Assembly (NCBI GenBank): GCA_023667045.1
Contig: JAMPAU010000001.1
Span: 713,819 to 777,818 of the forward strand
Origin: Ruminococcus flavefaciens
GTDB lineage: Bacteria; Bacillota; Clostridia; Oscillospirales; Ruminococcaceae
Length of the DNA stretch: 64,000 bases
Reading direction: 5' to 3'
This document shows, piece by piece, positions 5,533 through 31,086 of the stretch (within the stretch, counting starts at the first letter, position 1; every line of letters begins with the position of its first letter). Position numbers and translations under genes: made by a program. Below the pieces are notes generated by a model that saw only the letters and a program-made list of their open reading frames with translations, was not told the DNA's origin and did no database searches.

Positions 5533-6798
5533 TTAATCTATTGCATTGAATGCCTGTTCGATGTCTGCTATTATATCGTCAACATTTTCAAGACCGCATG
5601 AAAATCTAATCATACCGCCGTTGATTCCGGCAGCTACTAACTGTTCTTCTGTAAGCTGACGGTGAGTTTCGCTTGCGGGGTGGAGTACACAGGTTCTTAT
5701 ATCTGCAACGTGTACTTCATTTGATGCGAGTTTAAGGCTGTCCATGAACTTTATAGCGTTAGGTCTTCCGCCCTTGATTACAAAGGATATTACGCCACTG
5801 CAACCGCTGAGATACTTCTGTGCGAGTGCATAACCCTTGTCAGATTCAAGAGCAGGATATGTAACTGATTCAACCTTGTCTGAACTCTCAAAATATTTTG
5901 CAACTTTAAGAGCGTTTTCACAGTACTGCTTCATTCTTACGGCGAGGGTTTCGAGTCCGAGATTGAGCAGGAAAGAAGAATGTGCAGACGGATAACAGCC
6001 GAAATCTCTCATCAACTGCATTCTTGCTTTTGTAATGTATGCGGACTTTCCGTAAGTCTGAACGTATGAAATGCCGTGATATGATTCGTCCGGCTCTGTG
6101 AACTCTGGGAAGTTGCCGTTTGCCCAGTCGAAATTACCGCTGTCAACGATTACACCGCCTGTCTGTACTGCATGACCGTCCATGTACTTGCTTGTAGAAT
6201 GAATGACAATATCAGCACCAAATTCAATAGGACGGCAGAGTATAGGGGTTGCAAAGGTATTGTCCACTATGAGAGGTACATTATGGGCGTGTGCGATACG
6301 TGCGAACTTTTCAATATCAAGTACTGTGAGTGCAGGGTTGGCTATGGTTTCGCCGAACATTGCTTTTGTGTTAGGCTTGAAAGCCTTGCCTATTTCTTCT
6401 TCACTGGCATTGGGGTCAATATATATGCACTCAATGCCGAGTTTCTTCAATGTGTAAGAGAAAAGATTTATAGTACCGCCGTATATTTCGGGAGAACTTA
6501 CGATACTGTCTCCGGCTTTGCAGATATTAAGTATAGAAAGAAGTGTAGCTGCCTGTCCGGAGCTTGTACACATAGCACCTATACCGCCCTCAAGCTTTGC
6601 TATTTTTTCCTCGATAGCCATTGTGGTGGGGTTCTCGAAACGTGAGTAAATAAGGCTCTTTGTTGGGTCGTCGAATACAGCGGCTACTTCCTCAGTAGAA
6701 TCATATACATAGGTTGTACTCTGCACTATCGGCACAACTCTCGGCTCGCCGTTTTTTGGCTTATAGCCCTCATGCAGACACTGTGTTTCAATTTTCAT
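5533..6798 (-). CDS. metY: O-acetylhomoserine sulfhydrylase family enzyme, copy 2
   Basis: About 421 aa, a paralogue of the neighbouring metY. It has the same PLP-family landmarks: [20 protein letters not shown], and lysine in HSTSKYMDGH. Divergence is considerable, so the two copies may differ in sulfur donor or substrate. The start is MKIETQCLHEG, directly after AAGGAGG with an 11-nt spacer. A longer reading adds 22 residues encoded by the terminator region and is rejected. The leader holds tandem tRNA-like element A and a terminator just before the ribosome site, so expression is probably controlled by attenuation. Confidence 0.9.
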   Translation of the reverse strand: MKIETQCLHEGYKPKNGEPRVVPIVQSTTYVYDSTEEVAAVFDDPTKSLIYSRFENPTTMAIEEKIAKLEGGIGAMCTSSGQAATLLSILNICKAGDSIVSSPEIYGGTINLFSYTLKKLGIECIYIDPNASEEEIGKAFKPNTKAMFGETIANPALTVLDIEKFARIAHAHNVPLIVDNTFATPILCRPIEFGADIVIHSTSKYMDGHAVQTGGVIVDSGNFDWANGNFPEFTEPDESYHGISYVQTYGKSAYITKARMQLMRDFGCYPSAHSSFLLNLGLETLAVRMKQYCENALKVAKYFESSDKVESVTYPALESDKGYALAQKYLSGCSGVISFVIKGGRPNAIKFMDSLKLASNEVHVADIRTCVLHPASETHRQLTEEQLVAAGINGGMIRFSCGLENVDDIIADIEQAFNAID

Positions 6799-6814: not shown

Positions 6815-6863
6815 TAAAAATAAAAAAGTCCATGCGGACTGTATTTTTTATTTAAAGTCCGCA
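6815..6863 (-). promoter_or_regulatory. candidate attenuator: terminator against alternative pairing in the metY copy 2 leader
   Basis: Reading the minus strand, AGTCC (6836-6840), GCAT loop and GGACT (6827-6831), then TTTTTTATTTTT, form a short intrinsic terminator. The overlapping AGTCCGCA (6833-6840) can instead pair over 8 bp with TGCGGACT (6856-6863). Of that segment, 6857-6863 is the 3' acceptor strand of the tRNA-like module upstream. The three helices cannot coexist, which is the logic of a transcription attenuator. The trigger is unknown. Confidence 0.5.
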
Positions 6864-6993
6864 TACGGAGTTAAACCGTAATCTTTCCCCTTAGCAGAGG
6901 GAACGCTTTTTCGTTAAGCTATGCGGAAATGCCGGACGGATAACCGTATCCCTTTCATGTGGTGAAAATGCTTTAAAATTAAGCTACCGGCAA
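6857..6993 (-). ncRNA. tandem tRNA-like RNA element A
   Basis: Two cloverleaf-like modules abut head to tail. Module 1 (6993-6929, 65 nt) has acceptor TTGCCGG/CCGGCAT, TA at positions 8-9, D-like arm GCTT/AAGC with 7-nt loop, 5-bp anticodon-like arm TTTTC/GAAAG with 7-nt loop, 4-nt variable region, and a short ACGG-TTAT-CCGT arm. Module 2 (6928-6857, 72 nt) has acceptor TTCCGCA/TGCGGAC, D-like arm GCTT/AAGC, a 7-nt loop CTGCTAA on a 6-bp stem, and a full T-arm TACGG-TTTAACT-CCGTA. Neither D-loop has the GG pair of real tRNAs, and the 1-72 pair is mismatched. The first nucleotide coincides with the predicted transcription start. Confidence 0.65.
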
Positions 6994-6998
6994 ATAAT

Positions 6999-7027
6999 AT
7001 TATAACATAATATTACTTTTTTGTCAA
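6999..7027 (-). promoter_or_regulatory. sigma-A promoter of element A
   Basis: TTGACA (7022-7027), a 17-nt spacer, TATAAT (6999-7004) on the minus strand. A perfect consensus. Transcription would start at about 6992, the first base of element A. Confidence 0.88.
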
Positions 7028-7033
7028 CAGTAA

Positions 7034-7063
7034 AATAAAAAAGTCCCCGATAATTTCAAGGAC
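7034..7063 (-). terminator. terminator after the PepSY gene
   Basis: On the minus strand GTCCTT and GGGGAC form a 6-bp stem (7043-7063) followed by TTTTTT. It ends the PepSY transcript just before promoter A. Confidence 0.65.
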
Positions 7064-7071
7064 AGTTTTTA

Positions 7072-7469
7072 TTAGTCTCTTTCGACAAAAGAATGAAGTA
7101 TATCGCCGTTTTCAGCGTCAATATAATATTCGTATTCGTGACGTTTATAGTTGAAGTCGATTTCATATACTGTTTTGCCGTACTTGTAATCAAAATCAAT
7201 ATCCAAATCATAGATGTCATTTTCGCTTAATCCTGTATCATTAAGGGCAGTATCTATGGCAGTCTGCTTGGAAATATACTTATTAGTATTTAAATTATTA
7301 CCTGTATTGTCGCTGGCAGTTATCATGCTGTTGTTTGGATTATTTCTGTAGTCAGTTGAGTTGTTATCTTTTAAAAGAAGTACAATGATTATAGCAAGCA
7401 ACAAAATAACTATAACAAGCAAAACAGGTACTATCAGTTTTTTATATCAAATTTTTCTTTTTTATCCAT
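7072..7469 (-). CDS. PepSY-domain membrane-anchored protein with a probable frameshift
   Basis: The C-terminal half (KYISKQTAIDTALNDTGLSE… through …YYIDAENGDIL) is a PepSY domain, a small extracytoplasmic fold. A hydrophobic helix precedes it. The uninterrupted frame begins only inside the helix (MLVIVILLL, 7422), without a ribosome site. A better start is the ATG at 7469, 8 bases after AGG, giving MDKKEKFDIK. That frame reaches TGA unless one A is added to the run of six A at 7438-7443, after which it reads KLIVPVLLVIVILL without a break. Either an indel in the A-run or RNA polymerase slippage would explain it. The gene follows tandem tRNA-like element B. Confidence 0.7.
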
Positions 7470-7492
7470 TAAAAAAACCTGCTTTCTTTAAA

Positions 7493-7630
7493 GACCGTTT
7501 GCGGAGTTGAACCGCAGTCTCCACAACTGTGGGGAGGTGGTGTTCTGGCGTTGAACTATACGGAAGTGTCAGACGGATAACCGCACCGCCAGCGTGGGAG
7601 GCTGGAGTTCTTTACTTAAACTACTGACAA
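7493..7630 (-). ncRNA. tandem tRNA-like RNA element B
   Basis: Same layout as element A. Module 1 (7630-7566, 65 nt): acceptor TTGTCAG/CTGACAC, TA, D-like arm GTTT/GAAC, anticodon-like arm CCAGC-CTCCCAC-GCTGG, and short arm around loop TTAT. Module 2 (7565-7493, 73 nt): 5' strand TTCCGTA, TA, D-like arm GTTC/GAAC with loop AACGCCA, a 20-nt third arm closed by CCAC/GTGG, and T-arm TGCGG-TTCAACT-CCGCA, whose loop fits the tRNA T-loop consensus. Its acceptor pairing is the weakest of the set (about 4 bp). The element lies between promoter B and the PepSY ribosome site; no clear terminator was seen in between. Confidence 0.65.
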
Positions 7631-7634
7631 TATT

Positions 7635-7663
7635 AATATAACATATTTTTTACAGTTTGTCAA
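7635..7663 (-). promoter_or_regulatory. sigma-A promoter of element B
   Basis: TTGACA (7658-7663), a 17-nt spacer, TATATT (7635-7640) on the minus strand. The predicted start is at about 7628-7630, the first base of element B. Confidence 0.85.
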
Positions 7664-7670
7664 TAGAAAA

Positions 7671-7697
7671 ATAAAAAAATCCAGTCCCGAAAGACCG
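7671..7697 (-). terminator. terminator closing element C
   Basis: On the minus strand CGGTC (7693-7697) and GACTG (7682-7686) form a 5-bp stem with a 6-nt loop, followed by GATTTTTTTATTTTT. It lies between element C and promoter B, so element C is probably a separate transcript of about 175 nt. Confidence 0.6.
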
Positions 7698-7710
7698 AAT
7701 TATATCTAAA

Positions 7711-7848
7711 ATCCGCATATGGAGTTTAACCGTAGTTTCTACAGATTTGGAGGATGTAGCGTTTTGACACTGAACTATACGGAAGTGTTAGGCGGATAAC
7801 CGCATCTGTGTCCTAAGGAGACAGTCTCTAAACTTGAGTTACTGACAG
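7711..7848 (-). ncRNA. tandem tRNA-like RNA element C
   Basis: Third copy. Module 1 (7848-7785, 64 nt): acceptor CTGTCAG/CTAACAC (one C-A mismatch), TA, a weak 3-bp D-like stem, an anticodon-like hairpin with TGTC/GACA, and short arm GCGG-TTAT-CCGC. Module 2 (7784-7711, 74 nt): acceptor TTCCGTA/TGCGGAT, TA, D-like arm, third arm CTACA/TGTAG with an 11-nt loop, and a T-arm with 7-nt loop TTAAACT. It is flanked by its own promoter and a terminator and leads into no gene, so it looks like a stand-alone small RNA. Confidence 0.62.
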
Positions 7849-7852
7849 TATT

Positions 7853-7881
7853 ATTATAGCATGGTATTTTTTATTTGTCAA
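7853..7881 (-). promoter_or_regulatory. sigma-A promoter of element C
   Basis: TTGACA (7876-7881), a 17-nt spacer, TATAAT (7853-7858) on the minus strand. Divergent from the SDR gene promoter, with only 8 bases between the two -35 boxes. Confidence 0.88.
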
Positions 7882-7946: not shown

Positions 7947-8972
7947 ATGAAGATATGTCTGATGTGCCGTCAGCGGAATATGGAAAATTACGGAATATGT
8001 CCGGACTGTCAAGAACTAAATAATAAAATGCGTGGTCTGACGTGCGACCTCATCGGAAAAAACGCCGTCGTAACCGGAGGAAGAATTAAAATCGGCTATG
8101 CGGTATGTCTGAAACTGCTCAGAATGGGTGCAAACGTAATAGCCGTCACACGCTACCCCAAAAACGCCCTTGAAACGTACTCAAAAGAACCCGACTTCGA
8201 GGATTTCAAGGACAGGCTTTTTATTATAGGTTTCGACCTCATGAGAGTTGACCGTATACACGAACTTATCGAATATATCGGCAGTATATTTAATAACCGT
8301 CTTGACATACTTGTAAATAATTCCGCACAGACTGTAAAAAAATCCTCCGCATACTATGCCGAATTGCAGATGAAAGAAAATTCAATTGAGGATAAAACAG
8401 GTTTCAGACAGCTTTTGTCTATGTGTACGCCGGAAGAAAAATCTTTTTCGATTATTCCGAGTAATCAGCTTGTTGATTACGGCGAACAGCCTAATAAAAA
8501 TTCATGGGTACGCCGTCCGGAAGAAATATCTCCGCAGGAACTTTTAGAAGTACAGCTGATAAACGTTACCGCTCCTTTTATGCTCACAAACGGTCTTAGA
8601 AAGTACCTTGCACACGGCAAGGAAGAAAAGTCGTGGGTTATAAATGTAAGTTCAGTGGAGGGGCGTTTTAATACTAAACAGAAACTTGCACGCCATGTAC
8701 ACACCAACATGGCTAAAGCTTCGCTGAACATGATGACGCACTCTATAGCTTCTGATTTTGTCCGTGACGGAATTTATGTATATTCATGCGACCCTGGTTG
8801 GGTATCTAATCAGTTTCCGCCTGCTTACGAAATAAGCATTAATTTCAAACCCTATCTGACTTATGAAGACGGTGCTATGAGAATACTTTATCCGATTATA
8901 AAGAATTTCCATGAGGAAAAAATCAAGGATTATGGTATGTTTTACAAGGATTACAGAATTATTGACTATTAA
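7947..8972 (+). CDS. SDR-family oxidoreductase-like protein with N-terminal CxxC pairs
   Basis: 341 aa. Residues 1-21 hold two CxxC pairs (C4/C7 and C18/C21), a small zinc-ribbon-like head. A Rossmann domain follows, with the nucleotide motif TGGRIKIG (43-50) and an NNSAQT version of the structural NNAG motif (124-129). The catalytic region has Ser at SSVEG (235-236) and Lys257 in HTNMAKASLNMM, but the position of the catalytic Tyr (K minus 4) is Thr253. It may therefore be a binding protein or use altered chemistry. The ATG follows AAGGGGG. It is a single-gene unit with its own promoter and terminator. Confidence 0.85.
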   Translation: MKICLMCRQRNMENYGICPDCQELNNKMRGLTCDLIGKNAVVTGGRIKIGYAVCLKLLRMGANVIAVTRYPKNALETYSKEPDFEDFKDRLFIIGFDLMRVDRIHELIEYIGSIFNNRLDILVNNSAQTVKKSSAYYAELQMKENSIEDKTGFRQLLSMCTPEEKSFSIIPSNQLVDYGEQPNKNSWVRRPEEISPQELLEVQLINVTAPFMLTNGLRKYLAHGKEEKSWVINVSSVEGRFNTKQKLARHVHTNMAKASLNMMTHSIASDFVRDGIYVYSCDPGWVSNQFPPAYEISINFKPYLTYEDGAMRILYPIIKNFHEEKIKDYGMFYKDYRIIDY

Positions 8973-9008: not shown

Positions 9009-10472
9009 TTATTTTATTTTTGCATATCGTTCTGAAGAAAGAACTTTTTCCATGACTGCAACCGGTGAAAGTTCGCCGGAAATAGTCATATCAAATACAG
9101 ACTGTGAAAATCCCGAAACAAGAGCCACGCCGGTTTCTGACATACTCACAGGCATATTAGAATGTCTGCTTGCTACATTCCAGAAAACAACGTCCGGAAG
9201 ATTATAGCCGTTTTTATTATATTTCCTCTGCATTATATGAAACAGAGTATCATTGTTACCGCCGTCTATGCAGTAGTCAAATTCCATATCTGATATTATA
9301 TAGATTTTTGAGGGGAGTTCTTCCTGTGGGAGTTTATTCTTTATGGCTGTTTTAAGAATCAGATTAAATACTGCTTCAAGGTCTGTATTTGCATATTCAG
9401 TGAAAGTCTGACAGTATTCTACTTTTTCATATATGTCCTTACCTTTGATTTCTATAAGTCTCGGCATATTAGAAAAAGTAATAAAGTGATTTGCAAACCT
9501 GCCCTTGTTGTGTTCGGCGAAATATATTCCGAGCGAAAGTGCAACGTCTATAGGACGTACGGAATTTATCGCACTCCATGTCATAGAACCGGAAGTATCT
9601 ATCACTGCTATGGCGTTTTCGTTATTCTCTCCATAAGCCGGAAGATTATTCCACGTTACATCAAGGGATAGTCTTTCATTCGCTTCTGCACCGCAGTCAC
9701 AACGGCGTACTATCTCATACGGATAAAGCACTGACGTATTAAGTTTCTGTTCGCCTTTCTGTACAGATTCAAGATAGTCTGCATAACGCTCCCCATCGTG
9801 TCTGATAAAAGCCTTACGGTACTTAAACATAGCACATGAGGGCTGTTTTGAATAGTCAAAAGTATAGTCTGCAATCCTCAGACGGTTTTCAAGTATGTCA
9901 ATATACTTTCTGAGTTCTGAAAGCGTCTGACGGTACTTTTTTTCACTCATGCCGAGAAGTCGGGCTATTTTCTTTCCCATTATCTTAGTATCAGCAGACG
10001 AGGCATTAACTGACGGAAGCCACTTTGCAAGCAAGGAGACCTGCTCATTCCTTTGTTTTGATTCTACATCTTCGTCAAGCTGTCTTTTTATTTCGCTGAC
10101 GGCTTCTTCTTCGCATTTAGTTCCGATAAGCACCAGTAAATCGTCAAAACGTCCGTACTCCGCAAAGTAGGGAACATTTCTTTTTACCGAATCGGGTGCG
10201 TACCTTGACAGAGTATTTATTGCCGTTCTGAAAAAGCGTCTTTCACCGAGACCGCCTCTTGCGTCCCTTGCATAAAAGACTATTTTCATGGTCTTTTCGG
10301 GATTTTCATTGTATGCACGGATTACTGCTTTGGAAATCTCTTTTTCGTCGGCATTACGCATTGCACCTGCTCTGAAGAAAAGGTCAAGGCAGTGATTTCC
10401 GGTTGTGGAGTGGGTTAAAGCACCGTTTTCTGTGAATGTAAGGTTACTTTCCTTTTTCAAAAAATCCAGCAT
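9009..10472 (-). CDS. Ro60/TROVE-like protein (DUF2828 type) with von Willebrand A domain
   Basis: 487 aa. The N-terminal ~270 residues are helical (FYARDARGGLGERRFF near 66-81, PYFAEYGRFDDLL near 101-113) and resemble the HEAT-like ring of Ro60/DUF2828 proteins. The C-terminal part is a vWA domain whose metal site DTSGSM begins at D292. Ro60 orthologues bind misfolded RNAs and Y RNAs and act with exonucleases in RNA quality control. The start is the ATG after CAGGAGGTATTTT; an upstream reading adds 8 residues without a ribosome site. The 650 nt upstream hold repeated hairpins, and two WYL regulators point the other way, as in Ro/RNA-repair loci. Confidence 0.82.
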   Translation of the reverse strand: MLDFLKKESNLTFTENGALTHSTTGNHCLDLFFRAGAMRNADEKEISKAVIRAYNENPEKTMKIVFYARDARGGLGERRFFRTAINTLSRYAPDSVKRNVPYFAEYGRFDDLLVLIGTKCEEEAVSEIKRQLDEDVESKQRNEQVSLLAKWLPSVNASSADTKIMGKKIARLLGMSEKKYRQTLSELRKYIDILENRLRIADYTFDYSKQPSCAMFKYRKAFIRHDGERYADYLESVQKGEQKLNTSVLYPYEIVRRCDCGAEANERLSLDVTWNNLPAYGENNENAIAVIDTSGSMTWSAINSVRPIDVALSLGIYFAEHNKGRFANHFITFSNMPRLIEIKGKDIYEKVEYCQTFTEYANTDLEAVFNLILKTAIKNKLPQEELPSKIYIISDMEFDYCIDGGNNDTLFHIMQRKYNKNGYNLPDVVFWNVASRHSNMPVSMSETGVALVSGFSQSVFDMTISGELSPVAVMEKVLSSERYAKIK

Positions 10473-10489
10473 AAAATACCTCCTGTTTA

Positions 10490-10538
10490 TTAACAAGGCA
10501 CATAAAACTGTAGAAGCTGTAAATGCCTTTCTTGTTAA
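10490..10538 (-). ncRNA. hairpin in the leader of the Ro-like gene
   Basis: TTAACAAGGCA (10490-10500) pairs with TGCC-TTTC-TTGTTAA (ending 10538), an 11-bp stem with an internal bulge, 9 bases before the ribosome site of the Ro-like gene. Its loop carries the 20-nt repeat also found at 10736. Confidence 0.45.
10499..10518. repeat. 20-nt repeat, copy 1
   Basis: CACATAAAACTGTAGAAGCT. It matches 18 of 20 positions of the copy at 10736-10755, and both copies lie in loops of hairpins whose stems differ in sequence. Confidence 0.7.
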
Positions 10539-10985: not shown

Positions 10986-11122
10986 GTTCCGTTTGGTATG
11001 TACTAAGTATATCACAGATTATGGAAATAATCATATAAAAAAATCTGCGAACTTATTCGTATCAGCACTTGAAAAAATATTCCTTTTCTGTTATTATTAT
11101 ATATTGAAAGGTTGTGAAAGGC

Positions 11123-12382
11123 ATGGGCGGATTTTCTGAACTGGTTAAGAATTTCGACAAGACAAGAGACTATATACACGATTTCTTTATTTATGGTTTT
11201 AAAGTAAGAGGTGACTTCACACAAAAAAGTCTCCGTACGTATGACGACGAAAAAAGACGTGTGGAAAGCTGGCTGGGCAACTATATAAAATACAACCATT
11301 CCGCAAGAGGCAAAAAAACTTCAATATCTGTTGACAGCGGAAATATTCATGAAAATCCACTGTATCAGGCTTACTACTCAAAAAGCTTTACCGATAACGA
11401 TATAAAACTTCACTTCTTTATTATTGACATTCTGCATGACGGCGAAACACTGACCCTCAAAGAAATAGTAAACAGAATTGATGAGAATTACAGCGAAATC
11501 TTTGACGTTCAGACCATAAGAAACAAACTTACGGAATACGTTAAAGAGGGAATTATAATCTGTGAAAAAAACGGCAGAGTATCAAGTTTCCATCTCTCTC
11601 CAGACAGGACAGACCATTTTCTGAAAAGCTATAACGGACTTACAGACGCTGTGAAATTCTTTTCTGAAACTCAGAAATTCGGCATTATCGGAAACAGCAT
11701 TCTTAAATCAGAAAACCTAAAAAACGACCTTTTCGTTATAAAGCATAACTACATAGTGCATACCCTTGAAGATATTATACTTCCGGAAATAATAACTGCA
11801 ATCGAACAGAAAAAATATATATCAGCCGTTTCGTTTTATGCTGAAAAAAATAACGACGACCTGATTAATATTATTCCTATGCAGATTATGTCATCAGTTC
11901 AGACGGGAAGACGTTATTTAGCAGGTTATATTACATCTCAGCAACGCTTCACTTCACTTAGGCTTGACTTTATAAAAAGCATAAAGACAGGCGATATATG
12001 CGATTATTATGACGCAATATATGACAGGTTTATATATGAAAGAAACTACTGTTTCGGCGTGTCGTTTGGTTCTTGGAATAAATCACAGAAACTTGAAACT
12101 GTTATTATTGATTTCTGTATAGACGAAAAAAACGAAAGCTTTGTCATTGACCGTCTCAGACGTGAAAAAAGAAACGGAGTTCTTATAAAAACAGGCGACA
12201 ATTCATTCAGACTTACAATAAAGGTTTTTGATTCAAATGAAATAATGCAGTGGGTTAAGACTTTTGTAGGCAGAATAACTTCCATAAAAGGCGACAACAC
12301 AACAGTTATAAACCGTTTTTACAAAGATATATGCCGTATGCACAATATATACAAGGAAAGACAATATGACGATATTTCATGA
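11123..12382 (+). CDS. WYL-domain transcriptional regulator, first of a pair
   Basis: About 419 aa. The N-terminal half holds helical, winged-helix-like segments (TLKEIVNRIDENYSEIFDVQTIRNKLTEYVKEG). The middle (KYISAVSFYAEKNND… then RRYLAGYI) matches the WYL ligand-sensing fold. The C-terminal ~80 residues fit the WCX extension. WYL proteins bind nucleic-acid or nucleotide ligands and control defence and RNA-repair loci. The ATG at 11123 lies 11 bases after AAAGG; a GTG 9 bases earlier is the alternative. A promoter (TTGAAA-17-TATTAT) is directly upstream. It is divergent from the Ro-like gene and overlaps the next gene by 17 bases. Confidence 0.75.
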   Translation: MGGFSELVKNFDKTRDYIHDFFIYGFKVRGDFTQKSLRTYDDEKRRVESWLGNYIKYNHSARGKKTSISVDSGNIHENPLYQAYYSKSFTDNDIKLHFFIIDILHDGETLTLKEIVNRIDENYSEIFDVQTIRNKLTEYVKEGIIICEKNGRVSSFHLSPDRTDHFLKSYNGLTDAVKFFSETQKFGIIGNSILKSENLKNDLFVIKHNYIVHTLEDIILPEIITAIEQKKYISAVSFYAEKNNDDLINIIPMQIMSSVQTGRRYLAGYITSQQRFTSLRLDFIKSIKTGDICDYYDAIYDRFIYERNYCFGVSFGSWNKSQKLETVIIDFCIDEKNESFVIDRLRREKRNGVLIKTGDNSFRLTIKVFDSNEIMQWVKTFVGRITSIKGDNTTVINRFYKDICRMHNIYKERQYDDIS

Positions 12383-13346
12383 AATATACAGCAGTTATTT
12401 CCGGATAGCCTCTGAAATACTTAAACTTCCGGTTATTACAGAAAAAAATATAAACAGAATTATAAATGAACATGGTTTCCGTGACACAATGCTTTTTCTT
12501 CCGCAGAAATTTATTTCCCGAAACGGCTGGGGTCTGCTGAAAAACACAGGTGAAAAATTTATCCCTGTCATAAAAAACAAGCCCGTTTCTATACTTACAG
12601 AAATACAAAAGCAGTGGATAAGGGCAAAACTTGACGACCCTAAGATAAATCTATTTCTTGAAAGCAGTACTGTGTACGCACTGAAAGAACGTCTGAAAAA
12701 TGTAAAACCGCTTTACAGAGACGAGCATTACCGTTATACTGATAAATTCATGGACGGCGATGACTTTTCTGATGTGAATTATCAGAAAAATTTCCGGACA
12801 GTACTAAGTGCCGTAAAAAATCATGAAATACTTAAAATAACTTTCAACAGCAAAAATAACCAAAAACTCATAGGTTTTTATATTCCACTTAAAATACAGT
12901 ATTCGCCGAAAAACGACCGTTTCAGACTGCTGGCTTTCAGAATGCATGAAAATGAAGTTTCCGGCAGTGCTACCATAAATATAGGCAGAATTACCGGAAT
13001 TAACCGAACCGGCAAGGTATGGGAAGATGATATTTCTATGGAAGATTATTTCAGTCAGCAGAAATGCCGTGAACCTGTCACGGTTATAATATCGGAAGAA
13101 AGAAACGCCATACAGCGTTTTTTTATGGAGTTCGCACCTTTTGAAAAACGTGCTGAATTTGATTTGTCTTCCGGAAAGTGTACCGTTGAAATATGGTACG
13201 ACCGACAGGACGAAACAGAATTACTTATACGCCTGCTCAGTTTTGGTCCTGTGATAGAGGTTACAGCACCGCATGAGTTTAGGCGGCAAGTACAGGAGAG
13301 AGTTACAAGACAGTATGATTTACTGCATAAAAAAACGCTGATATAA
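12366..13346 (+). CDS. WYL-domain transcriptional regulator, second of a pair
   Basis: 326 aa. The central region (HEILKITFNSKNNQKLIGFYIP followed by FRLLAFRMHENE) fits a WYL domain, and the last ~80 residues (VTVIISEERNAIQRFF… then LLSFGPVIEVTAPHEFR) fit the WCX extension. The N-terminal 130 residues are less clear and show no obvious helix-turn-helix, so it may work with its partner as a heteromer. It overlaps the first WYL gene by 17 bases, with the ribosome site AAGGAAAG inside that gene, so the two are translationally coupled. A terminator follows. Confidence 0.75.
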   Translation: MTIFHEIYSSYFRIASEILKLPVITEKNINRIINEHGFRDTMLFLPQKFISRNGWGLLKNTGEKFIPVIKNKPVSILTEIQKQWIRAKLDDPKINLFLESSTVYALKERLKNVKPLYRDEHYRYTDKFMDGDDFSDVNYQKNFRTVLSAVKNHEILKITFNSKNNQKLIGFYIPLKIQYSPKNDRFRLLAFRMHENEVSGSATINIGRITGINRTGKVWEDDISMEDYFSQQKCREPVTVIISEERNAIQRFFMEFAPFEKRAEFDLSSGKCTVEIWYDRQDETELLIRLLSFGPVIEVTAPHEFRRQVQERVTRQYDLLHKKTLI

Positions 13347-13364: not shown

Positions 13365-14000
13365 TTATATTACATATTTTGTATGGAAATCTATAAAGTC
13401 GTTTTCACTGAAATCCGGAATACTGCCGTACACATCAAGCATAAGCCGGATTATTGCAACAGACTTTGCCTGTGTATTTATGCTTTTATTCGGGTTAAAC
13501 TCTATATCCGTGAAATGCGTATATTTCTTTATTTCTTTAATCTCATCATCAGAAAGAGAGTTCTTTACAGCTTTTATATAGATATAGTCGTAAAACAGCG
13601 TTTTCGGAAAAAGTGGGAAAATATCGCCATTATAGTCAAAATATTTCAGCTCTCCGGAACTTTTCAGACGTGGGTCTCTTTTAGCGTCTTTCGGCGGAAC
13701 TTCAAGCAAATCCCTGTAAGCACCTCCGGCAGTGAAAATCTTTGAACTCTGAAAAATATTCTCCAGTGTGTAGCCGTCAAGTTTCAGATTAAACGCACTT
13801 AGCTTTGCGCCGAAAGGATTTCTGCTTTTTGTGCTTACTTCAAGAGGGTTTGCAATGCTGTCAGCTTTTAAAATCTCATTATGCAGACTGTCAATTGATT
13901 TCTGCTTCTGTGATACTGCAAATCCAGAACACCATTCAAAAGAATAATTCCTTACCGCAACTTTATTATTGCTGACGTAATATGCGGGTCTTTCAGCCAT
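13365..14000 (-). CDS. orphan NADAR-type protein (DarT1-antitoxin-like)
   Basis: 211 aa. It matches, from memory, the NADAR proteins that pair with DarT1 ADP-ribosyltransferase toxins: MAERPAYYV start, SGFAVSQKQKSIDSLHNEI, EVSTKS, KLSAFNL, LENIFQSSKIF, AKRDPRLKSSG, and FTDIEFNPNKSINTQA. Those partners remove ADP-ribose from guanine in DNA. No DarT toxin gene is adjacent: the neighbours are the Maf fusion upstream and convergent WYL genes. It may be a lone protective enzyme, or the toxin may have been lost. The ATG follows TGAGGTATAATT, directly after the previous stop. Confidence 0.7.
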   Translation of the reverse strand: MAERPAYYVSNNKVAVRNYSFEWCSGFAVSQKQKSIDSLHNEILKADSIANPLEVSTKSRNPFGAKLSAFNLKLDGYTLENIFQSSKIFTAGGAYRDLLEVPPKDAKRDPRLKSSGELKYFDYNGDIFPLFPKTLFYDYIYIKAVKNSLSDDEIKEIKKYTHFTDIEFNPNKSINTQAKSVAIIRLMLDVYGSIPDFSENDFIDFHTKYVI

Positions 14001-30947: not shown

Positions 30948-30953
30948 GAAAAC

Positions 30954-31061
30954 GTCTTCAGGGCAGGGTGTAATCCCCTACCGGCAGTTAAAGTCTGCGA
31001 GCCTACGGGTTGATTCGGTGAAACTCCGAAACCGACGGTTAAAGTCCGGATGTGAGAAGAT
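30954..31061 (+). ncRNA. FMN riboswitch (RFN element)
   Basis: Carries the family's conserved stretches in order: GTCTTCAGGGCAGGGTG, ACCGGCAGTTAAAGTCTGCG, GGTTGATTCGGTGAAA, ACCGACGGTTAAAGTCCGG and the closing GAGAAGA. It binds FMN and, with the terminator that follows, stops transcription of the rib operon when FMN is plentiful. Confidence 0.96.
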
Positions 31062-31086
31062 ATTATTATTCCACGCTGTATCTATG

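Follow-up and report, generated by a model that had tools for sequence, protein, structure and literature searches.

Tandem tRNA-like RNAs linked to SDR-like and LRR protein genes in Ruminococcus and relatives: a candidate RNA-protein system

Three two-module RNAs in the window

The window is a 64,000-nt stretch of a Ruminococcus flavefaciens genome (GCA_023667045.1, contig JAMPAU010000001.1, positions 713,819 to 777,818). Its minus strand carries three RNA genes of ~139 nt each, copy A (6994-6856), copy B (7631-7492) and copy C (7849-7710). A metY-like gene for an O-acetylhomoserine sulfhydrylase lies downstream of copy A (5533..6798, minus strand), and a gene for an SDR-like protein is divergent from copy C (7947..8972, plus strand). 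An earlier note, made from the sequence alone, had described the RNAs as pairs of tRNA-like modules, and we confirmed this plan: in every copy a module 1 of 65-66 nt is followed, without a gap, by a module 2 of 73-75 nt.

In copy A, module 1 (6929..6994; all module, promoter and terminator coordinates given here are on the minus strand) has a 6-bp acceptor-like stem, a 4-bp D-like arm, a 5-bp anticodon-like arm with the loop ACCACAT and a 4-bp T-like arm with the loop TTAT. Its module 2 (6856..6928) follows the class I tRNA plan, with the loop CTGCTAA and the T-loop TTTAACT, and lacks an encoded CCA. Module 1 of copy B (7566..7631) carries the anticodon-like loop CTCCCAC, and that of copy C (7785..7849) the loop TCCTTAG; the T-like loop is TTAT in all three, as the earlier note had stated. 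Module 2 of copy B (7492..7565) has the expected T-loop TTCAACT, and that of copy C (7710..7784) has an enlarged anticodon-like loop containing CTCCAAA. The paired changes previously cited in support of folding were all found. The acceptor-like stems are likewise present, although they were drawn with 6 bp and an unpaired outermost position rather than the 7 nt first described, and those of C module 1 and B module 2 contain one mismatch each.

Near-perfect sigma-A promoters precede all three copies, in agreement with the earlier description. They read TTGACA-17-TATAAT in copy A (-35 at 7022..7027, -10 at 6999..7004) and copy C (7876..7881 and 7853..7858), and TTGACA-17-TATATT in copy B (7658..7663 and 7635..7640), and they end 3-4 nt before the model start. 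Transcription of copies A-C is predicted to start at, or 1-2 nt from, the first paired base. By eye, a hairpin with a T run resembling an intrinsic terminator follows copy A (6821..6841) and copy C (7671..7698), whereas the GC-rich hairpin that had been proposed for copy B is absent, with only a T run there.

Other features were observed nearby. After copy B, on the same strand (7072-7480), an ATG-opened frame stops at once and a PepSY frame lies in another frame. A DUF2828-DUF7788 gene (9009-10496, minus strand) adjoins two WYL/WCX-like frames (11114-13346, plus strand); DUF2828 occurs in 64 of 125 genomes of the genus. Pfam identified a protein with a NADAR-DarT1-type antitoxin domain (13365-14000, minus strand), and an FMN riboswitch (30950-31065, plus strand; 111 bits) precedes riboflavin-biosynthesis-like frames (by eye).

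In the Rfam scan proposed in the earlier note, tRNA was the sole family that these RNAs matched at cut-off. The tRNA model RF00005 gave 41.7 bits for A module 2, 30.0 for B module 1, 28.8 for C module 2, just under the cut-off of 29, and 23.3 for B module 2; matches to other Rfam families were sub-threshold and far below their own cut-offs. ARAGORN called A module 2 a tRNA-Ser(GCT). Module 2 shares with tRNA the class I plan, TA at positions 8-9 and the T-loop, and is evidently tRNA-derived.

Distribution, fold and promoters of the family

A blastn search found matches in 8 of 60 genus genomes, own genome included. We built a covariance model, R1, from the three window copies; at E ≤ 0.01 it matched 31 of 125 genus genomes, 27 of which were judged real on reading. 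The R1 matches in G053, G099 and G119 proved to be ordinary tRNAs and were left out of the counts, as were G111 (a 70-nt match), L146:5982 and L153:86, while G083 (29 bits with R1) was retained because it closely resembles L047. With a second model, R2, built from 38 sequences, the tally for the taxonomic family was 167 of 297 genomes, in which matches below ~57 bits were taken, by score, as ordinary tandem tRNAs. Outside the genus, G151, G226, G261, G415 and G236 were clear and G358 (64.9 bits) was doubtful, its module 2 resembling a common tRNA; L088, near the ~57-bit line at 58.8 bits, was read as ordinary tRNAs. A scan of the order (394 genomes) found G670, from another family. The scan of 398 genomes of the phylum with R2 gave no accepted homologue, three matches of ~60 bits being ordinary tRNAs on reading. 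Scans of more than 40 genomes were run with stricter filters, at which weak matches are lost. Outside Ruminococcus-like bacteria, the RNAs occur rarely and patchily.

The earlier note had made recurrence of the two-module plan with covariation the test of its own proposal, and both were found in homologues. Among 38 aligned homologues, pairing holds in 94.7% of cells, and changes on both sides occur in 30 of 39 pairs, values that none of 500 shuffles reached on either measure. In 109 sequences beside SDR genes, a set that overlaps the first and like it was fitted to the model and hence leans towards its pairs, 95.3% of cells pair, 38 of 39 pairs have compensatory double changes, and 1035 cells are double-changed versus 249 in shuffles. 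Slid controls paired in only 36-47%. Acceptor-, D-, anticodon- and T-like arms are present, with TTC[AG]A in the T-loop of 86 of 134 module 2 sequences and a short T-like arm in module 1. In the divergent L047 and L050, module 1 seems to have a single hairpin where its D-like and anticodon-like arms would be (by eye), so it is under weaker constraint than module 2.

A promoter score of at least 10/12 was reached upstream of 90 of 132 unique elements (1.25% of shuffled upstreams), and at least 9/12 upstream of 92 (7.6% of shuffled upstreams); among these 92, the spacer is 17 bp in 86 and the -10 box ends 3 nt before the model start in 82. The 40 elements scoring below 9 include 34 that lie directly behind another element (≤75 nt), and 86 of the 92 elements not so placed score at least 9/12. 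Arrays contain up to nine units (L165), with seven in L169 and L172 and six in L164 and L170. The low scores of elements behind others suggest that each long array has one leading promoter; in the window, unlike the long arrays, there is one promoter for each unit.

These data bear on whether the RNAs are a functionless tRNA gene cluster, either decaying or selfish. A patchy distribution, with one of 394 order genomes besides own matched at E ≤ 1e-10, would suit such a cluster, but compensatory change in nearly every pair and promoters before most elements that do not follow another one make it extremely unlikely.

Linkage to SDR and LRR genes

The genomic partner, which the earlier note lacked, is the divergent SDR gene, with an LRR gene after the SDR in most relatives. 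Searching from the SDR side, we obtained 61 loci in named records, often from the same genomes as the earlier sets or close kin, so that the following counts are not independent: the RNA was present in 50 of the 53 loci with at least 300 nt upstream, divergent in 48 and co-oriented in 2, at a distance of 42-143 nt in 48, and an LRR gene lay ≤200 nt downstream of the SDR in 39 of 54 loci with at least 1 kb of downstream sequence. The SDR orthologues of L149 and L163 lacked the RNA upstream.

Starting from the RNA, we examined 39 loci with flanks using a gene caller, which found the SDR in 18, a full-length LRR partner in 20 and either in 32; the SDR beside L116 was missed by the caller and is present by SDR profile search. 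The seven loci without either partner in the examined stretch include two that reach a contig edge (L132, L136) and five that do not (L139, L140, L141, L146, L147). Where an LRR but no SDR is present, the RNA lies upstream on the same strand in 10 loci and is divergent in 3. Nearness is thus kept and orientation is not, as the RNA is divergent or co-oriented according to locus type. In L126 and L129, the RNA and LRR gene stand behind a phage-tail/contractile-system-like cluster (by eye).

Within the genus, the SDR profile detected 19 of 125 genomes, 18 of which have the RNA, adjoining the SDR in 17; G044 has an interrupted SDR on a contig other than that of the RNA, and in G097 only a contig-edge piece was seen. 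An LRR profile, built from RNA neighbours and searched against all 125 genomes, gave 17 full-length matches of at least 389 bits in 15 genomes, all 17 within ~1.6 kb of an RNA; the next match scored 125 bits. Fisher p values for the SDR and LRR partner linkage were 3e-14 and 2e-12 (hand-entered counts, uncorrected for relatedness). The window's own genome has no LRR partner (best match 105 bits) and instead carries two metY-like genes after the RNAs. The system as a whole is rare: among 343 phylum genomes, SDR profile A12 detected one, own genome only.

The metY-like gene was our first candidate for a regulatory target. The terminator-like hairpin of copy A stands between this RNA and the ribosome-binding site of metY and can, through its 5' half, base-pair with the 3' acceptor strand of copy A (by eye), as would suit a cis-acting attenuator or leader of the downstream gene; a 5'-leader layout would also agree with the copies next to metY and with the 10 LRR loci in which the RNA is co-oriented. 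However, the complementarity is lost in some relatives, for example in the copies nearest metY in L026 and L012 (by eye), metY neighbours the RNA in just 10 of 39 loci, and in 48 of 50 SDR loci the RNA is directed away from the conserved SDR gene and so is not the 5' leader of a controlled gene, as a riboswitch would be. We dropped cis-regulation of metY because the acceptor-terminator pairing is not conserved and orientation is against it, and an attenuator in general is very improbable.

Another neighbour is the DUF2828 protein, a putative Ro60-like (TROVE) protein. It was considered as the partner of a Y-RNA-like RNA since bacterial proteins of the Ro60 type bind Y RNAs that mimic tRNA. Its gene is 1.2 kb away in the window and near the RNA in 6 of 39 loci, but it occurs in 18 of 27 RNA-positive versus 46 of 98 other genus genomes (Fisher p 0.08), and the RNAs have no long closing stem as in YrlA. 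This partnership is highly improbable and was set aside, co-occurrence not being significant.

The SDR-like protein has N-terminal CxxC pairs and an SDR fold, and it matches classical SDRs in the PDB. Active classical SDR enzymes have the catalytic motif YxxxK. On alignment to 2hq1, every aligned partner SDR reads TNMAK at this site, with threonine in place of the catalytic tyrosine in 11/11 and 10/10 sequences of two overlapping sets. The usual partner arrangement is an SDR without catalytic tyrosine, then a gene for a BspA-type LRR protein. The model of the LRR protein (pLDDT 88) has a helical C-terminal part, and its 13 Foldseek matches in the PDB at E ≤ 0.001 are all BspA/TpLRR-type LRR proteins. 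A DUF434-DUF5616 homologue occurs in 4 of 61 SDR loci, fused to the LRR in two and after it in two (Pfam was run on the two fused forms). PADLOC assigned none of its families to the five proteins scanned.

Two alternatives assign the partner proteins a different role. In the first, a type III-like toxin-antitoxin system, the RNA would be an antitoxin holding an LRR toxin inactive, with DUF434-DUF5616 as effector where present. The 10 loci with the RNA and then the LRR gene on the same strand, the arrays of repeated RNA units, and the two fusions and two further genomes with the homologue behind the LRR are in keeping with this idea. Such a system nevertheless seems unlikely, given that DUF434-DUF5616 homologues are confined to those four SDR loci, that own genome retains RNA and SDR without the LRR, and that no nuclease is among the 13 structures matched by the LRR model in the PDB. 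In type III toxin-antitoxin systems, RNA repeats neutralise an endoribonuclease whose gene lies downstream. Their RNAs are not known to be tRNA-like; what they share with this family is a series of structured RNA repeats with a terminator ahead of a protein-coding gene, as in some of our loci. The usual layout here is divergent.

In the second alternative, the SDR would be a tRNA-binding scaffold that processes or modifies these odd tRNAs in the manner of SDR5C1, the dehydrogenase of human mitochondrial RNase P. According to PMC10602865, the presence of SDR5C1, not its activity, is needed for efficient pre-tRNA cleavage, which offers a parallel to an SDR that lacks the catalytic tyrosine and is linked to tRNA-like RNAs. 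Against this, the neighbour clusters represented in ≥4 or ≥5 loci included no recurrent methyltransferase or PRORP-like gene (judged from first residues), and transcription is already predicted to begin at the acceptor base. We regard such a maturation role as quite unlikely; the likeness is that of an SDR protein working with tRNA, without a nuclease or methyltransferase partner seen in our family, and we do not claim membership.

The pairing extends beyond the genus. It holds in G670, whose SDR is 65% identical to that of L164, and on a phage-like IMG/VR contig, where the SDR is 41% identical to the query and a tandem tRNA-like RNA (68.5 bits) lies 98 nt from the SDR match and is directed away from it. 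A Deinococcus plasmid encodes an SDR 39% identical to the window's, with a tRNA-like element called Ala(TGC) 58 nt before the annotated SDR start and two small hairpins with the loops CTGCTAA and CTCCAAC before the SDR. As R2 scored only 22.5 bits there, this form is a resemblance and not a model match, and it may be a degenerate version of the SDR-RNA pair. No tRNA-like element was found near the SDR relatives of two Streptomyces, one Tsukamurella and one Capsulimonadaceae. In L247, another IMG/VR relative, an LRR-like reading frame directly follows the SDR (by eye), and there is no tRNA-like element within 270 nt upstream. The SDRs of L241 and Deinococcus matched none of 50,697 phage records and four records among 72,556 plasmids, and a pattern scan for the SDR motif in viruses found nothing.

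tRNA-like loops and a proposed role in trans

Certain anticodon-like loops recur. Classed by simple motif rules, the GCT loop (motif [CT][TC]GCTAA) occurs in 22 of 52 SDR-proximal units, and the order GCT, then CTC or TTC, then CCA opens the arrays of L164, L165, L166, L170, L172 and L202; L169, L180, L154, L185, L188 and L196 open with another order. Module-1 loops follow NCCNCAN in 37 of 59 seven-nt cases.

Such loops raise the question of whether these are genuine, if unusual, tRNAs serving translation. ARAGORN labels many module 2 sequences as tRNAs with varied anticodons, and D-loop GG is present in units of the long arrays. The earlier note had held that this GG is absent, which is true of all three window copies but not of the family, where 62 of 134 module-2 D-loops have it, as compared with 42 of 42 own-genome tRNAs in the stretches fetched. 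An encoded CCA near the end is rare (5 of 132 elements versus 33 of 42 of those tRNAs), and T33 is found in just 6 of the 59 seven-nt module-1 loops. Ordinary tRNAs for GCT, CTC, CCA, GCC, TCC, GTC, TTC and ACG exist in own genome, so decoding needs none of these RNAs; among them are Trp(CCA), Glu(CTC) and a normal Ser(GCT) tRNA of 89 nt, whereas the Ser(GCT)-type module of the window is without a long variable arm. A role in translation is accordingly very unlikely. Taken as a family, the RNAs depart from tRNA in the use of abutting pairs as the unit, in the reduced module 1, in lacking CCA in 127 of 132 elements and in the partial occurrence of D-loop GG. A separate tRNA-like element with a four-base anticodon (G000:C35:57353-57422) was left unassigned by ARAGORN.

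With the fold, promoters, array organisation and gene linkage established by computation, we consider it probable that these genes encode stand-alone noncoding RNAs of a tandem tRNA-like family, which work in trans with one or more proteins encoded next to them. Action in trans is in itself very likely, since orientation to the partner genes varies, the RNAs have their own promoters and their folds are conserved. The simplest reading of the gene linkage is that the RNA binds the SDR, the LRR protein or both, and it probably does form a complex of this kind.

In the mechanism we propose, each RNA would be transcribed from its own sigma-A promoter, beginning with the first base of the acceptor-like stem or one beside it, and would fold into two tRNA-like modules, the first reduced and the second nearly full. 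It would then work in trans with the SDR-like protein, usually together with the BspA-type LRR protein, in a ribonucleoprotein of which SDR and LRR could be the binding and effector parts. The tRNA-mimicking anticodon arms might be bound by tRNA-directed factors, as in a sensor or decoy. That the RNAs are sensors or decoys for tRNA-targeting factors is a tentative suggestion drawn from the anticodon-like loops; the recurrence of these loops and the occurrence on phage-like and plasmid DNA would be compatible with such a tRNA mimic.

Among known systems, YrlA offers one point of comparison. According to PMC8394870, it is a bacterial noncoding RNA that acts with the Ro60-like protein Rsr, the rsr and Y RNA genes lying together in some bacteria, and it combines one tRNA-like domain with a large stem, formed by its paired 5' and 3' ends, to which Rsr is tethered. 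Our family resembles YrlA in size and in having a tRNA-like domain, but differs in its linked SDR and LRR genes and in its structure, for which the pairing supports two separate modules, each closed on itself, and no large 5'/3' stem. Phage-encoded tRNAs with altered anticodon loops, proposed as replacements for depleted tRNAs, are also comparable; the present family differs in its paired modules and dedicated SDR/LRR genes, and most loci seen are off phage records.

The earlier note did not recognise these RNAs as a published class, and we likewise found none in Rfam 15 or in a search of titles and abstracts of mainly open-access journal articles. Relatives in other gut bacteria mostly lie next to the same unusual SDR-like gene, and this linkage suggests an RNA-protein system that is as yet undescribed. 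tRNA mimicry is seen in few bacterial RNA classes, and within that literature we found none described as tandem arrays, here of up to nine units, with SDR/LRR genes. In annotation, a tRNA finder mislabels genes of this family as ordinary tRNA-Ser, tRNA-Glu or tRNA-Trp. The family can be tested at once because its linked partner proteins are named, rare and conserved. It may represent a system that spans more than a single phylum and also occurs on phage-like and plasmid DNA, in which arrays of tandem tRNA mimics with recurring anticodon loops (GCU, CUC, CCA and others), bound by a catalytically altered SDR and an LRR protein, could possibly report or buffer attack on the cell's tRNAs.
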